Shown here: positions 26,853 to 31,973 of the stretch, piece by piece
How positions within the stretch are numbered: the stretch's first letter is position 1
Layout: each line of letters begins with the position of its first letter
Assembly: GCA_017535945.1 (NCBI GenBank)
Contig: JAFXTJ010000010.1
Span: 1 to 43,253 of the forward strand
Direction: 5' to 3'
Length of the DNA stretch: 43,253 bases
Source: Lachnospiraceae bacterium
GTDB taxonomy: Bacteria > Bacillota > Clostridia > Lachnospirales > Lachnospiraceae
Notes under the pieces: generated by a model
Database searches by the model: none
The model's input: only the letters and a program-made list of their open reading frames with translations
Told to the model about the DNA's origin: nothing
Translations under genes and position numbers: made by a program

Positions 26853-28400
26853 TCAGCCGGAGATCTCATCCACATCGATCCCCCGCTGCGGGAGCAGTGA
26901 TTCATATACATCAATATACGCCGCATCGACGATCACATCCAGTACCGCGTCATACACGAGGATATTGGCTCCGTTGGTATCCGTCGTGCAGTCCGTCGTG
27001 CCGACCCGTACCCGGTCCGTGCAGGCCCCGTCTTCGTCCGGTCTCCGCTCCGCCGTAACGGGACGCCTCCCGCATCGGGACACATAGCTGCCCTCTCCCG
27101 CGCCGGAGGCATAGCTCAGAGCGCCGTTCTCCAGGACAAAGCACCCGCCTTCGAGATAAGCCTGACGGCTGATCCCCAATGCTGCAAGGGATGGCGCATA
27201 CGCATCCTCCCCCTGTGCATTATAGTCTCCGTCGAGCGTGATGACGGTCACGTATCTGTCTGCCGATCCCGCGAGGATCTCCAGATATTCGTTGATGTCT
27301 CCGGCACGGGCCAGCCGCAGGAAATCCGCACGGTCCTCCAGATACCGCGCATCCAGATCCCACTCCGCGTAGGCCGGATCCCCTCTGTGATCGGGGAAGG
27401 TGTAGTGCTCCGTCAGCCACCGCTCCAGCCAGGTCATCAGCTTCGCGGAGCCGTTGTTGTTCAGATGCCCGGAATCCCGGAAATCCGTGGCAAAATCGAT
27501 GCCGGTCTCCCCGTAAAAGGTGTTGAAATTCAGATACGGCACATTCCTTTCGGCACACAGATCCGCCACGTAATTCTGCACCGCCATGTTGTGCCCGCCG
27601 CCCTCGGCGCAGGGCGCGCAGTACAGGAGCAGGTTCACGCCCTTTTCCCCGCACAGATCCATGATCTTCACGAGGGCTTCCGGACCGATCCCCTGCGGAA
27701 CACTCCGTTCATCCGTCGGCTCCGGCGGCAGCTGCGGCGCGCATTCATCACTGCCCAGATACCCCTTCCGGAACCAATACCTGTTCCTGAAATTATCCTC
27801 TCCCAGGCTTTCGTATCTCGTATGCAGGATCGGCAGCTTGAACAGGAGCGCTCCGGCGAATTCGTCATCCAGTCCGTAAGCCTGCTTCTGCGAGCGGATC
27901 ACTTCCGCGTAATCGGCCGACCATTTCAGGTCGAGATCCGTGCGGTAGAAATTGCCGAGTTCCGTCACATATCTGCCCTGTGCCTCATCATAGGCCGGCA
28001 GGGCGACATTAAAGGTCTCCACCATGACGAGCTGCGGATGCTGTGTCTTAAGCGCCTCCCGCACGTAATACCAGGTATTGTCAAAAGACTGTGCGCCCGC
28101 CGTCAGGGTGTACGAAGCGATCCCCGTATCCTTCCACAGCCTGCTGTTGTCAAACGTGCAATGGGAATGGCTGCTGCCGAACACCATGAGGTCGATCGAT
28201 CCGCGCTTTGCGGCATAGAAATTCCTGAGGCCCCCGCCGCCTCCCTGCCCGCGGTAGCCGAACACACCGTAGAGACCGCGGAAGGCAATGAGCAGCACCG
28301 CAAAAAACAGCAGACAGCGGACCGCGATCCCGGTCTTTGTCGATGACGTCCTGTTTTTCTCTTCTGTCTCCAATGTCTCCGTCCCGTCAGAAATTCGCAT
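26853..28400 (-). CDS. membrane-anchored SGNH-like protein of the MBOAT cassette
   Basis: A single N-terminal helix (about 24-46) anchors a 465-residue extracytoplasmic domain. The fold signatures are SGNH/GDSL-like: MVFGSSHSHCTF with GSSH at 75-78 (block I) and DSGHLNNNG with D309 and H312 (block V), the Ser-His-Asp arrangement also used by DltD and AlgJ/AlgX. Such proteins hand acyl groups from an MBOAT partner to a surface polymer or remove them. The C-terminal 170 residues beyond the SGNH fold are a separate unidentified domain with Cys pairs. ATG 28400 overlaps the MBOAT stop by 14 nt; a TTG at 28421 is a poorer alternative. Position with MBOAT and carrier protein makes it the likely DltD counterpart. 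Confidence 0.85.
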   Translation of the reverse strand: MRISDGTETLETEEKNRTSSTKTGIAVRCLLFFAVLLIAFRGLYGVFGYRGQGGGGGLRNFYAAKRGSIDLMVFGSSHSHCTFDNSRLWKDTGIASYTLTAGAQSFDNTWYYVREALKTQHPQLVMVETFNVALPAYDEAQGRYVTELGNFYRTDLDLKWSADYAEVIRSQKQAYGLDDEFAGALLFKLPILHTRYESLGEDNFRNRYWFRKGYLGSDECAPQLPPEPTDERSVPQGIGPEALVKIMDLCGEKGVNLLLYCAPCAEGGGHNMAVQNYVADLCAERNVPYLNFNTFYGETGIDFATDFRDSGHLNNNGSAKLMTWLERWLTEHYTFPDHRGDPAYAEWDLDARYLEDRADFLRLARAGDINEYLEILAGSADRYVTVITLDGDYNAQGEDAYAPSLAALGISRQAYLEGGCFVLENGALSYASGAGEGSYVSRCGRRPVTAERRPDEDGACTDRVRVGTTDCTTDTNGANILVYDAVLDVIVDAAYIDVYESLLPQRGIDVDEISG

Positions 28401-29937
28401 AGATAAATGACTGCATATCAAAGCCCGGCCCGTAGCAGCCGTATACGATCACAAAAAACAGCAGGCCGATGATCAGGATCCACCGGAGCGGCGGATTCTG
28501 TCCGGAAAGCCAGTCCGTGAGGGACATCTCCCTGTGCGCACACAGCAGTCCGGCTGCGGCGAGGATCGCCAGTGCCAGGATGAGGATATGGATCTCCGTC
28601 ACGGACAGTCCCAGTTCATACAGGGAGCCGTCAAACAGGACCCAGGGATTATACGTAAAAAAGCTTTTCCACAGGACAAATCCGCTGTGCAGATCCTGTG
28701 CCCGGAACATGGAAAGCCCCAGTGAGAAAAACGCGAACGTGCGGATCCGGCAGAACAGGCGATAGCTGTCGCAGTCCCGGTTGATCCTGAGGAGCCCTGC
28801 ACACCGGACAAAGACCGGTGACAGGATCTGTCCGGCGACGATGATCCCGCCCTGCAGCAGACCCACGCCGAAGATGTATTTCCATTCCCCGCCGTGCCAG
28901 AAGCCGACCATGAACCAGGAGATCATGAGCGCGCAATACATCGGCAGTTTTTTGGCGAAATCCGCACCCGTCCGCTTCCCGAGCCTGTCCCGGGAGAACT
29001 TCCCGAACCGTCTCCACAGATCCGTCTTCAGCACCGGGTACAGGATGTACTGTCTGAGCCACGCACCGAGCGTGATATGCCATCGTCTCCAGAACTCCTC
29101 CAGCGTCAGCGACATAAACGGCAGCGAGAAGTTCTCCGGGAGCGTGATCCCCATCATCCGGGAGACGCCCAGGCAGATATCGATGCATCCGGAGAAGTCC
29201 GTGTACAGCTGCAGCGTGAACAGAAAGACCGCCAGGACCGCATAGGTCCCGCGGTATACGTCAGGTTCCGCATAGACCGTATTGACGATCACCGCCAGCC
29301 GCTCACTGATCACCAGCTTTTTGAAAAAGCCCCAGAGGACCCTCTGTGCGCCGGCAGTGATATTCCGGTAGGAGATCGCGTGACCCTCCGTGATCTCCCG
29401 GTAACTGTCATTGTATTTGACGATGGGCCCCGAGGTCAGCAGCGGGAAGAAACCGGCAAATGCCGCAAACCGCAGGGGATTTTTCTCCGCCCGCTCCGTC
29501 TTCCAGTAAACCTCCAGCACATAGGAGATCAGGACCAGTGCGAAATAGGAAATGCCGAGCGGCGTAACCCCCGACAGGACCGGTGCCGTCAACGGCGCAC
29601 CGCCCGTCAGGCGGTCCGGCAGCAGGTTCAGCAGCCAGACGAAAAAGCGGTTCTCCTTAAGCGCAAAGAGGATCCCCGTAAGGCAGATCACGCTGCCGAA
29701 TGTCACAACGCGATCCGCACCCGTCCGTTCTTCATGCCCGTTCAGATACAGCGCCGCCCCCCAGGACAGCACGATCATGAAGAGCATGACCGACACCGCC
29801 GGCAGGGAATCCGCCCTGACAATAAAAAAAAGATCCGCTGCCAGCAGAGGCACGAAGCGGTAGCGGATCGGAAACAGATAATATAATACGAGGCTGGCCG
29901 CCGCGAAGATCAGAAAATCAACGGAAGTCAATGACAT
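28387..29937 (-). CDS. MBOAT family O-acyltransferase (DltB/AlgI-like)
   Basis: A polytopic protein of 516 residues with about ten hydrophobic segments. The MBOAT core is clear: the SYREITEGHAISYRNI loop, LQLYTDFSGCIDICLG (242-257), EFWRRWHITLGAWLRQYILYP (281-301) and the catalytic histidine H348 in FWHGG. MBOATs of the DltB/AlgI kind pass an acyl group from a cytosolic thioester carrier through a tunnel to a lumenal acceptor. Here the carrier would be the ACP three bases upstream. GAAAGGACA precedes the ATG. The acyl group cannot be read from this protein; see the FkbH-like gene. Confidence 0.95.
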   Translation of the reverse strand: MSLTSVDFLIFAAASLVLYYLFPIRYRFVPLLAADLFFIVRADSLPAVSVMLFMIVLSWGAALYLNGHEERTGADRVVTFGSVICLTGILFALKENRFFVWLLNLLPDRLTGGAPLTAPVLSGVTPLGISYFALVLISYVLEVYWKTERAEKNPLRFAAFAGFFPLLTSGPIVKYNDSYREITEGHAISYRNITAGAQRVLWGFFKKLVISERLAVIVNTVYAEPDVYRGTYAVLAVFLFTLQLYTDFSGCIDICLGVSRMMGITLPENFSLPFMSLTLEEFWRRWHITLGAWLRQYILYPVLKTDLWRRFGKFSRDRLGKRTGADFAKKLPMYCALMISWFMVGFWHGGEWKYIFGVGLLQGGIIVAGQILSPVFVRCAGLLRINRDCDSYRLFCRIRTFAFFSLGLSMFRAQDLHSGFVLWKSFFTYNPWVLFDGSLYELGLSVTEIHILILALAILAAAGLLCAHREMSLTDWLSGQNPPLRWILIIGLLFFVIVYGCYGPGFDMQSFIYANF

Positions 29938-29940
29938 GGA

Positions 29941-30180
29941 TCATGTCCTTTCCAGGATCATGTCGACCATCTCCCCGACATTTTTAAACTTGTTCACCTC
30001 GCCGATGTTGAATTTCAATCCGAATTCATTCTCCACCGCAAAGATGAGATTGATATGCTCCATGGAATCCCAGCCCTTCACATCCGCCGCCGTGGTAGCG
30101 TCACTGACACGGATCCCATCGATGTCAAAAACACGTTCGAACACGCCGTTCAGGCGTTCGTATACCTCTTCCCTCGTCAT
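29941..30180 (-). CDS. acyl carrier protein
   Basis: A 79-residue four-helix carrier. Ser39 in GWDSMEHINLI is the phosphopantetheine site, with the DSM(D/E)H form typical of stand-alone ACPs in secondary pathways, not the DSLD of fatty-acid AcpP. The start follows AGGAGG inside the fkbH-like gene by about seven bases. It sits 5 nt after that gene and 3 nt before MBOAT, so one carrier most likely serves this pair only. Confidence 0.95.
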   Translation of the reverse strand: MTREEVYERLNGVFERVFDIDGIRVSDATTAADVKGWDSMEHINLIFAVENEFGLKFNIGEVNKFKNVGEMVDMILERT

Positions 30181-30185
30181 GTACC

Positions 30186-31973
30186 CTATGCCTCCTCCGT
30201 CCGGATCACATCGTTCTTATCCGTATACCCGCCGCGGATATCCAGTTCCCATGTCGTGTTCCCGGAATCCTCCGATGCGATCAGCGTATACCCCATATCG
30301 GCGAAAAAGTCCCTGACCATTCCGTTCTTCGCCGTCGGCAGATAATAGCCCAGGATCCTGCCGACACCGCGCTCTCCGAGCCGGTGCACAAGCTCATCCA
30401 TCATAGCATATTCCATATTCCGTTTCAAGACGCGGCAGCTCATGAGCCAGAGCTCGATATGGCACACATCCCCTTCGATCCGTCCGATCGCGAGAGATAC
30501 CACGCCGTTATCCCCGAAACGATCCGCAAGCCGGCCGCACAGCGTGATATACCGGTCATCCGCGGCGATCTCCTCGATCTCACTCTGCGTATAGCGCCTG
30601 GTCGTCAGATTGAACTGGTTGCTCTTATTGGTGAGCTGAGCGATCCGTGCCATGTAGAGCGGCTCGAACGGCGTGATCTCCGCCCGCATCTGCAGGCTGA
30701 CCAGGTATTCCCTGTAATCGGTAAAGGAGGCGCGCAGGCGTTGTCTGCCGGCGTTCTCCCGGTACATGTCGTTACGGCGTCTGTCATCCTCCGAGAGGGT
30801 CGTGACCTCGAAAAACCCGCTCCTGTCGATGACACCGATCATGTCACAGGGACGGTCAAAATCCGGTGCGCTGACGCCGGGGATCTGTTCGCGGACGATG
30901 TGGCGCTCCGCCGGGTTGTCATCCACGAATACCAGGCTTTCTGGCAGAAGGTTCAGCTCATCGGCGATCTCGCGGAAATTCCGGTCTTTCGGTTCCCAGT
31001 TGGCCCTGATACAGATGAAATCCTCTTCGGACAGGCCGCTGTCCGGGTGCTTCAGACCGGCGAGCGCGTTGGCCTCATCGTTCTTGGAATCGATGTTCAG
31101 CAGGATCCCCAGCTTCTTCAGCTGAGCCAGATAAGACTGGAATTCCGAATAGATCTGCCCCTCCGGTTCCTCCGGACCGAGCACGATATTCTCCGGACCG
31201 TCATCGCCGATCACACCGCCCCAGAGTGTATTGTCAAGATCCAGGACCAGTCCCTTTTTATTCTTCCCGTAGATCGACCGGATGATCCGTGCGGTCTGAT
31301 AAGACAGTACCGGGATCGCCGGGACCGCGACGGCATATTTGTACATGTGCCAGTAGAACGGATCGGACCATTCCCTGAGCCCGTAATCCCCGGACAGATA
31401 ATCCAGATCCAGCAGGTAAAAATTCTCATGGGACGCGGCATAAGCGGCAAATCCGGCATTCAGGCGGTTGATGAAGCTGACTCTTCCGTGCGGATCCGTA
31501 GCATCCCTGTTGCCCATGAGACGCCAGTACGGCTTCTCGAAATTATTCTGGATCACCGGGCAGTGATAGACCTCCGCCAGATGATCCCACATGGCGGTGA
31601 ATTTCTCCGTCTGTGCCGTAAGCAGCGCATCGATGTCATCCGCGGGATCGTCAAGTGACGGATAAGTGTCGATATTGCGGTTGGAGGTGCAGATATAGAT
31701 CAGATCGGGGGAGAATACCTCCAGCGCGGGATTGGGGAACATGGCCTCCTGATAATACTGATTGTAGGCGGACTCATAAAAGACCGGCCGGATCCCGGCA
31801 TCCAGCAGGAACAATTCCAGGACCTGCACGATATCTCCGGTCGTATAGCCGCCCAGCACCGCGATCTTCTTATCGGTATAGGTGACGCCTTCCCTCTCCA
31901 GCAGCCTGCGGCGCAGCCTTTTCTTATTCTCTATGATCTCCCTGCCGTTAAAGGGATACTCCAGTTCCTTCAT
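30186..31973 (-). CDS. FkbH-like HAD-family enzyme (probable three-carbon acyl loader)
   Basis: The 595-residue protein is an FkbH homologue. Residues 1-235 form a non-catalytic-looking alpha/beta N domain. The HAD domain (about 236-385) has D245 and D247 in VLDLDNTLWGG and VDDNPAE near 350. The C-terminal domain has LTNKSNQFNLTTRRYTQ (447-463) and C513 in MSCRVLKRNME, a GNAT-like fold in FkbH. Characterised FkbH enzymes of polyketide pathways take D-1,3-bisphosphoglycerate, remove phosphate and load a glyceryl group on an ACP. The neighbouring ACP and MBOAT suggest the same loading here. It lies 16 nt after rnfB; a G-rich stretch is the only ribosome-site candidate. Confidence 0.9.
   Translation of the reverse strand: MKELEYPFNGREIIENKKRLRRRLLEREGVTYTDKKIAVLGGYTTGDIVQVLELFLLDAGIRPVFYESAYNQYYQEAMFPNPALEVFSPDLIYICTSNRNIDTYPSLDDPADDIDALLTAQTEKFTAMWDHLAEVYHCPVIQNNFEKPYWRLMGNRDATDPHGRVSFINRLNAGFAAYAASHENFYLLDLDYLSGDYGLREWSDPFYWHMYKYAVAVPAIPVLSYQTARIIRSIYGKNKKGLVLDLDNTLWGGVIGDDGPENIVLGPEEPEGQIYSEFQSYLAQLKKLGILLNIDSKNDEANALAGLKHPDSGLSEEDFICIRANWEPKDRNFREIADELNLLPESLVFVDDNPAERHIVREQIPGVSAPDFDRPCDMIGVIDRSGFFEVTTLSEDDRRRNDMYRENAGRQRLRASFTDYREYLVSLQMRAEITPFEPLYMARIAQLTNKSNQFNLTTRRYTQSEIEEIAADDRYITLCGRLADRFGDNGVVSLAIGRIEGDVCHIELWLMSCRVLKRNMEYAMMDELVHRLGERGVGRILGYYLPTAKNGMVRDFFADMGYTLIASEDSGNTTWELDIRGGYTDKNDVIRTEEA

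Follow-up and report, generated by a model that had tools for sequence, protein, structure and literature searches.

Acyl groups known to be delivered through the membrane to surface polymers include acetyl and D-alanyl. In D-alanylation, the membrane-bound O-acyltransferase (MBOAT) DltB accepts the D-alanyl group from the carrier DltC on the inner side of the membrane and brings it to the outer side. To our knowledge, the AlgI/AlgX, PatA/PatB and WssH systems of O-acetylation have no dedicated carrier or loader. In the part of one account that treats these systems, only their MBOAT and SGNH components are named (PMC9558356). Enzymes of the FkbH family in the tetronate and methoxymalonate pathways are described, in the passages of PMC7489565 that concern them, as makers of glyceryl-acyl carrier protein (glyceryl-ACP). 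Here we analyze a 43,253-nucleotide stretch of a Lachnospiraceae bacterium (contig JAFXTJ010000010.1 of assembly GCA_017535945.1; hereafter, the window), in which genes for an FkbH homologue, an ACP, an MBOAT and an SGNH-fold protein form a single tight run on the minus strand, from 31973 to 26853. We interpret this cassette as a Dlt-like machine for surface O-acylation that employs a different loader, FkbH, and would put the probability of this reading at roughly two in three. The reading is built on the genes and their order, conservation at the catalytic positions, a predicted SGNH fold, the recurrent linkage of the genes and the phylogeny of the MBOAT, from which we infer the chemical steps, the D-glyceryl cargo and the glycan acceptor.

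With DltABCD, the cassette shares a carrier protein, an MBOAT homologous to DltB, a putatively anchored last transferase and the organization in one tight operon; the difference is that FkbH stands in the place of the DltA ligase. With the tetronate, methoxymalonate and aeruginosin-type pathways, it has in common the FkbH family, the ACP and the conserved residues, but the FkbH-ACP pair of these pathways feeds assembly lines whereas the outlet of the cassette would be a membrane acyltransferase. An MBOAT is also present in suomilide clusters, where the part of the report that deals with it proposes acylation of a sugar (with hexanoate) rather than transfer of glycerate (PMC8609519). In the literature searched, which covered few subscription papers, we found no prior description of an FkbH-ACP-MBOAT-SGNH system; FkbH appeared together with MBOAT in aeruginosin-type pathways only, and HAD-IIIC did not appear with MBOAT.

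The FkbH homologue (595 amino acids; 30186..31973, minus strand) comprises FkbH_N, HAD-IIIC and C-terminal domains, belongs to the FkbH family by its score of 258 bits on TIGR01686 (cut-off 146.65) and is homologous to BF1531, the structure of which has been solved (3slr; E 1.5e-46). Its HAD-IIIC domain carries D245, D247, K297, D351 and D352, and its C-terminal domain C513; these residues do not vary across 16 relatives, and D245, D247, D351, D352 and C513 are also the same in five FkbH proteins encoded on plasmids. The ACP (79 amino acids; 29941..30180, minus strand) matches PF00550 above the cut-off, with Ser39 as the phosphopantetheine site, and this serine is kept in 86 of the 86 ACP matches of related loci. 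The MBOAT (516 amino acids; 28387..29937, minus strand) scores 59.5 bits on PF03062 (cut-off 27), contains H287 and H348, the latter invariant in 18 MBOATs, and is homologous to the solved DltB structures 8jem and 6bug (E 2.2e-19). The last gene of the run (26853..28400, minus strand) encodes a protein of 515 amino acids that was assigned by alignment, an AlphaFold model and a structure match. It consists of a long N-terminal helix (residues 13-47), probably a membrane anchor, an SGNH domain (approximately 48-336) and a strand-rich C-terminal extension (approximately 383-506). The SGNH domain contains G75 and S77 along with D309 and H312, that is, both the serine and the Asp-x-x-His pair, and the SGNH fold is supported by the predicted model, in which residues 48-336 match a PatB-like structure; the 50 structure matches listed for these residues include neither a DltD nor an AlgX chain, which excludes nothing. 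The four-gene cassette of the preliminary description of this DNA, with the HAD D245/D247 pair and the C513 block of FkbH, Ser39 of the carrier, H348 of the MBOAT and the DxxH of the SGNH protein, is confirmed.

Under this model, by analogy with characterized FkbH enzymes, in which a cysteine takes part in the reaction, the HAD site of the window FkbH would dephosphorylate D-1,3-bisphosphoglycerate, with the glyceryl group held on C513 and then handed to the phosphopantetheine on Ser39 of the ACP. The MBOAT would accept this group from the ACP on the inner side of the membrane and bring it across in the manner of DltB, and the SGNH protein, the proposed last acyl transferase on the outer side, would join it as an ester to a hydroxyl of a polymer outside the cell, a reaction like those of PatB and DltD. 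The proposed loader has a parallel in Methylosinus, where an FkbH with the same D245, D247, K297, D351, D352 and C513 lies in a FabH-FkbH-ACP-E2-like-hydrolase-PKS run that matches the tetronate glycerate-utilization operon, as far as that operon is presented in PMC7489565.

The gene set is not confined to the window. A second set is located in the same genome, on contig C67 (L014, 5281-13106), inside a pseudaminic-acid gene cluster, in the order pseudaminic acid synthase (493 bits, cut-off 340), ACP, MaoC, SDR, MBOAT, SGNH, a PseG-like gene (below its cut-off) and FkbH, which reaches the contig end. The two sets are 56% identical in FkbH, 57% in ACP, 37% in MBOAT and 28% in SGNH. FkbH matches above the cut-off were detected in 10 of the 299 phylum genomes searched, 82 of the 397 family genomes and 33 of the 61 genus genomes. 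Excluding the three copies of the source genome, the phylum and family genomes yielded 108 FkbH loci above the cut-off, and within 5.5 kb on the strand of FkbH, domain calls with small local hidden Markov models identified ACP at 88 of these, MBOAT at 40, SGNH at 22, MaoC and VOC at 21 each, and SDR and GNAT at 18 each. Given 241 MBOATs in the 129.9 Mb of 40 FkbH-bearing genomes, about 1.1 of the 108 loci would be expected to have an MBOAT near FkbH by chance; a probability computed from this figure should not be read at face value, since the loci are mutually related and such genes gather in glycan clusters. MaoC and VOC never co-occur in the 108 loci (Fisher p 0.011), nor do GNAT and MBOAT (Fisher p 1e-4), although these p-values overstate the independence of the loci, which are mutually related. 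The two mutual exclusions suggest one tailoring slot and one outlet slot.

We also took the 80 closest relatives that the window FkbH has in a named collection, some of which come from the same genomes as the 108 loci; ACP was found within 5 kb of 77, MBOAT of 51 and SGNH of 28. The exact order of the window, in the absence of any visible MaoC, SDR or VOC gene, recurs in eight of the 80 (L209, L210, L212, L228, L233, L247, L249 and L251) as well as in L032 and L091, and in Acetivibrio ethanolgignens (L248), FkbH, ACP, MaoC, SDR, MBOAT and SGNH are consecutive. Within the genus, where the best-scoring 20 of the 40 places above the cut-off outside the source genome were taken, MBOAT and SGNH lie within 6 kb of FkbH at 18 loci, at 15 of these on the FkbH strand. 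Separately, we observed that in the genus loci L315, L317 and L331, FkbH is opposite in strand to ACP, VOC, MBOAT and SGNH.

The phylogeny of the MBOATs is a further line of evidence. A quick tree built from 120 MBOATs places the proteins of the window and of C67 in a clade of 26 rows (support 99) that come exclusively from FkbH loci, 23 of them FkbH-linked and three far from FkbH or on the opposite strand. When searched against 70 FkbH-negative genomes, a profile of the FkbH-type MBOAT gave matches with E values no higher than 1e-30 in 63, and of the best 30 matches fetched, 27 fell with FkbH-linked rows in a larger clade of 59 (support 84), from which all 37 other MBOATs are absent. The linked MBOAT rows number 44 in total; the larger clade takes in 29 of these, and the 26-row clade 23. 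An MBOAT family exclusive to FkbH, which a first tree had suggested, was rejected in view of the 63 matching FkbH-negative genomes, and because the best matches of the reverse search mostly belong to a sister group, we narrowed the claim to a nested clade; the 15 linked rows outside the larger clade also argue against a single coupled family. A careful tree was built from 50 selected rows (16 FkbH-linked from the 26-row clade, 14 of the 27 sister MBOATs, 18 of the 37 others and two from Alphaproteobacteria), and in it an ACP-type clade (100/99), to which the window MBOAT belongs, contains the nested FkbH clade (100/98).

The 1.5-kb flanks of the 27 sister MBOATs contain ACP in 20 cases, as called with an ACP model that had been widened using hits of the loci scored. 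SGNH is present in 24 of the flanks, an AMP-binding ligase in 13 and a pyridoxal-phosphate (PLP) decarboxylase-like gene in four; no loader was seen in these flanks for the remaining ones. None of the 37 other MBOATs (30 high Pfam scorers, one per genome, and seven from the source genome, a set that leans towards the Pfam type) has an ACP beside it. The sister MBOATs are thus commonly found in operons with ACP and SGNH, with a ligase instead of FkbH as the putative loader in the 13 cases, and because the FkbH clade is nested among MBOATs often linked to a ligase and an ACP, FkbH looks to have replaced the ligase of a dlt-like ligase-ACP-MBOAT-SGNH system. As a separate observation, the neighborhoods L162-L191 of FkbH-negative family genomes display a dlt-like arrangement of an AMP-ligase or PLP decarboxylase-like gene with ACP, MBOAT and SGNH. 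Other MBOAT lineages are also coupled to FkbH-ACP, namely, four short proteins (support 100), nearer to DltB than the window MBOAT but likewise below the cut-off of the DltB model (164-192 bits against 375), and an Alphaproteobacterial pair (100/99) that is placed with the other MBOATs. The preliminary description had envisaged a dlt-like system with FkbH in lieu of the adenylating enzyme and had called for a search for co-occurrence of the four families. Such co-occurrence is indeed recurrent, and the second set in the genome, the 40 of 108 loci, the 18 of 20 genus loci and the MBOAT clade all strengthen the idea.

Several observations, nevertheless, weigh against the interpretation of the cassette as a Dlt-like O-acylation machine. 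First, FkbH-ACP pairs that lack an MBOAT, which the preliminary description had regarded as potentially refuting, are common: 50 of the 88 ACP-bearing FkbH loci have no near MBOAT on the same strand, and 42 of these 50 are flanked on both sides by 5.5 kb of sequence or more. Close kin of the window FkbH, in L089, L092 and L107, show the arrangement FkbH-ACP-MaoC-SDR with no MBOAT in view. Second, in an FkbH tree of 104 rows, one 74-row clade includes every one of the 41 MBOAT-linked rows (those of the window and C67 are counted here), together with 22 rows with no MBOAT and 11 that are cut, and the 30 rows outside this clade have no MBOAT link, but the nine-row set immediately around the window is mixed (three with MBOAT, counting the window itself, four without and two cut). 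Third, of the 15 linked MBOAT rows outside the larger clade, 11 are scattered among other MBOATs, so that some FkbH-MBOAT links may be mere neighborhood. Fourth, each of the 18 genus loci that have an MBOAT includes a tailoring gene (VOC in 14, MaoC in four), which makes the bare form in the window unusual; a tailoring gene possibly lies elsewhere in the genome, and FkbH may load another cargo. Fifth, none of the immediate neighbors of the cassette is a polymer gene. Finally, the window MBOAT scores 136.6 bits on the DltB model TIGR04091, below the equivalog cut-off of 375 despite its homology to DltB, and the DltD family PF04914 matches neither the SGNH protein of the window nor any other protein of the genome, a 2.65-Mb assembly that is 82% complete, so that this absence and that of DltA are to be read with that limit.

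With the best DltA match in the genome at 53.9 bits (cut-off 559.85) and none in the cassette, membership in the Dlt system was rejected on the DltA and DltB cut-offs and the missing DltD match. Judged by the parts that define Dlt, the cassette does not belong to it. An atypical D-alanylation, with D-alanine or another amino acid as the cargo and a ligase encoded elsewhere, could be envisaged from the homology of the MBOAT to DltB, the AMP-ligases in some sister operons and the alanine racemase gene (alr) downstream, at 24551-23406. However, alr is a common housekeeping gene, domain searches found no amino-acid activating domain in the window FkbH, and DltA and DltD are lacking as just described; we consider this explanation highly improbable.

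A different alternative is that FkbH-ACP serves N-acylation of sugars in the cytoplasm whereas MBOAT-SGNH is a separate O-acetylation pair that uses acetyl-CoA and is no more than a neighbor. Such a role is compatible with the 18 loci at which GNAT is near FkbH and with the location of the C67 set next to a pseudaminic acid synthase, as well as with N-glyceroyl pseudaminic acid in Tannerella and the fkbH-domain gene cj1302 in the flagellar glycan locus of Campylobacter jejuni, both as mentioned in the relevant parts of the respective papers (PMC9912281 and PMC7099621). Moreover, SGNH is also present in nine of the 37 other-MBOAT neighborhoods, and the linked MBOATs that group with other MBOATs fit a chance association. 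It is opposed by the complete separation of GNAT from MBOAT among the 108 loci, by the lack of a GNAT match near the window copy and by the position of the window MBOAT in a clade that, unlike the 37 other MBOATs, is often found beside ACP genes. We view this alternative as improbable. FkbH-ACP looks like a general loading module, with MBOAT-SGNH as one outlet, given the 50 loci without a near MBOAT, and the mixed FkbH set around the window likewise suggests a loader that different outlets have in common.

Regarding the cargo of the proposed O-acylation machine, no match to MaoC, SDR, VOC or GNAT was found within 5.5 kb on the same strand around the window FkbH, which favors plain D-glyceryl. 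This is our best guess from homology and context. Nothing in the window points to a wall polymer as the acceptor. The same machine could instead deliver a tailored three-carbon group, such as lactyl or an epimerized or O-methyl glyceryl, made by enzymes encoded elsewhere in the genome. The presence of VOC or MaoC at all MBOAT loci of the genus set and of MaoC and SDR in the C67 copy speaks for tailoring, as does the conservation of the candidate active sites at related loci: D35 and H40 in 22 of 22 MaoC proteins, Y151 and K155 in 20 of 20 SDRs, and, in the VOC proteins, which belong to Glyoxalase_4, H5 in 26 of 26 and E52, H76 and E125 in 25 of 26. A single table line of PMC7901079 also lists an FkbH loading domain as converting 1,3-bisphosphoglycerate and ACP to D-lactate-ACP. 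Conversely, no tailoring gene is near the window copy, and the bare four-gene order recurs in the eight relatives, some of them cut by contig ends. We regard tailored cargo as unlikely for the window. For the C67 copy, the case differs: dehydration of glyceryl-ACP by MaoC and reduction by SDR would give lactyl-ACP, so this copy may make lactyl. In bryostatin-type loading modules, FkbH loads a D-lactyl group, and MaoC and SDR beside FkbH-ACP would be the stand-alone counterpart of such a module, a pair that the window copy does not have. The VOC proteins of the FkbH loci presumably resemble acyl-thioester epimerases. As a side observation, methyltransferase genes adjoin FkbH, ACP and VOC in L104 (11497-12210) and L292 (9261-10229), where the product is perhaps O-methyl glyceryl.

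These patterns can be brought together in a tentative scheme, to which we would give clearly less than even odds, of a modular three-carbon acyl code for surfaces, composed of the FkbH-ACP loader, optional tailoring and a choice of outlet. In this code, the absence of tailoring would yield glyceryl, MaoC with SDR lactyl, VOC epimerized glyceryl and a methyltransferase O-methyl glyceryl; MBOAT-SGNH would form ester bonds outside the cell and GNAT amide bonds inside. The code would have originated when FkbH took over from the AMP-ligase of a dlt-like machine and, separately, in other MBOAT lineages, including those of Alphaproteobacteria. If the cassette functions as we propose, the ester content of the surface would be tied directly to the 1,3-bisphosphoglycerate pool, and a loader fed by glycolysis would add glyceryl or lactyl esters to the known repertoire. 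Many of the FkbH, ACP and MBOAT genes found in Lachnospiraceae-type genomes might thereby be assigned a function, and one can ask whether DltB-like MBOATs accept any small carrier-bound acyl group.

In another phylum, related arrangements are found on plasmids. On pSymB of Sinorhizobium meliloti, genes for an MBOAT, a GGS/DxxH protein, an ACP and FkbH are consecutive and close to capsule genes, and a plasmid of Rhodobacteraceae SC52 carries, beside sulfation genes, an uninterrupted series of genes for ACP, FkbH, MBOAT, SGNH-like protein and VOC. The SGNH readings on both plasmids are motif-based, the local model giving 19.4 bits for SC52 and nothing for pSymB. Of the further plasmid loci examined, those of Niveispirillum, Methylosinus and Paroceanicella contain FkbH and ACP but no gene annotated as MBOAT; the plasmid record of Subdoligranulum carries no annotation at the FkbH locus. 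The GGS/DxxH protein of pSymB (L290, 5728-6957) is annotated as a TonB-dependent receptor but resembles an SGNH partner of the adjoining MBOAT. The FkbH match in S. meliloti 1021 (NC_003078.1, 631256-632394) was joined from two pieces, whereas it is a single piece in the other listed strains.

In the window, the cassette is preceded by rnf genes and followed by an open reading frame of no clear family, nnr and alr. Its GC content is 57.5%, compared to 59.7 and 60.2% in the flanks, and the rnfB neighborhoods of eight same-genus loci, in seven of which the sequence continues for 700 nt or more past the downstream end of rnfB and in one for only 108 nt, contain no FkbH match. This context hints that the cassette may have been gained by insertion at the rnf site. 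A promoter scan gave five candidates versus 5.4 in shuffled sequences, and 13 terminator-like elements were found versus 7.1. The source genome contains ten MBOAT and three FkbH matches in total. The third FkbH (L013, 1294-3237, on contig C18) is approximately 28% identical to that of the window, has R instead of K297 and lies among glycosyltransferase-like genes, with neither ACP nor MBOAT found nearby.

The C-terminal extension of the window SGNH protein (26856-27365) is common to some relatives and to an SGNH protein of the same genome that is not linked to FkbH (L018). It is possibly a sugar-binding domain and, by its motif, may be ILEI/FAM3-like; a Pfam search with six such extensions gave one weak match (L086, E 0.0079, below the cut-off) and none for the window. 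Two SGNH-like proteins of related loci have cysteine at the position expected for the catalytic serine, in L053 (11716-12804) as GNC and in L071 (17859-19124) as GDC.

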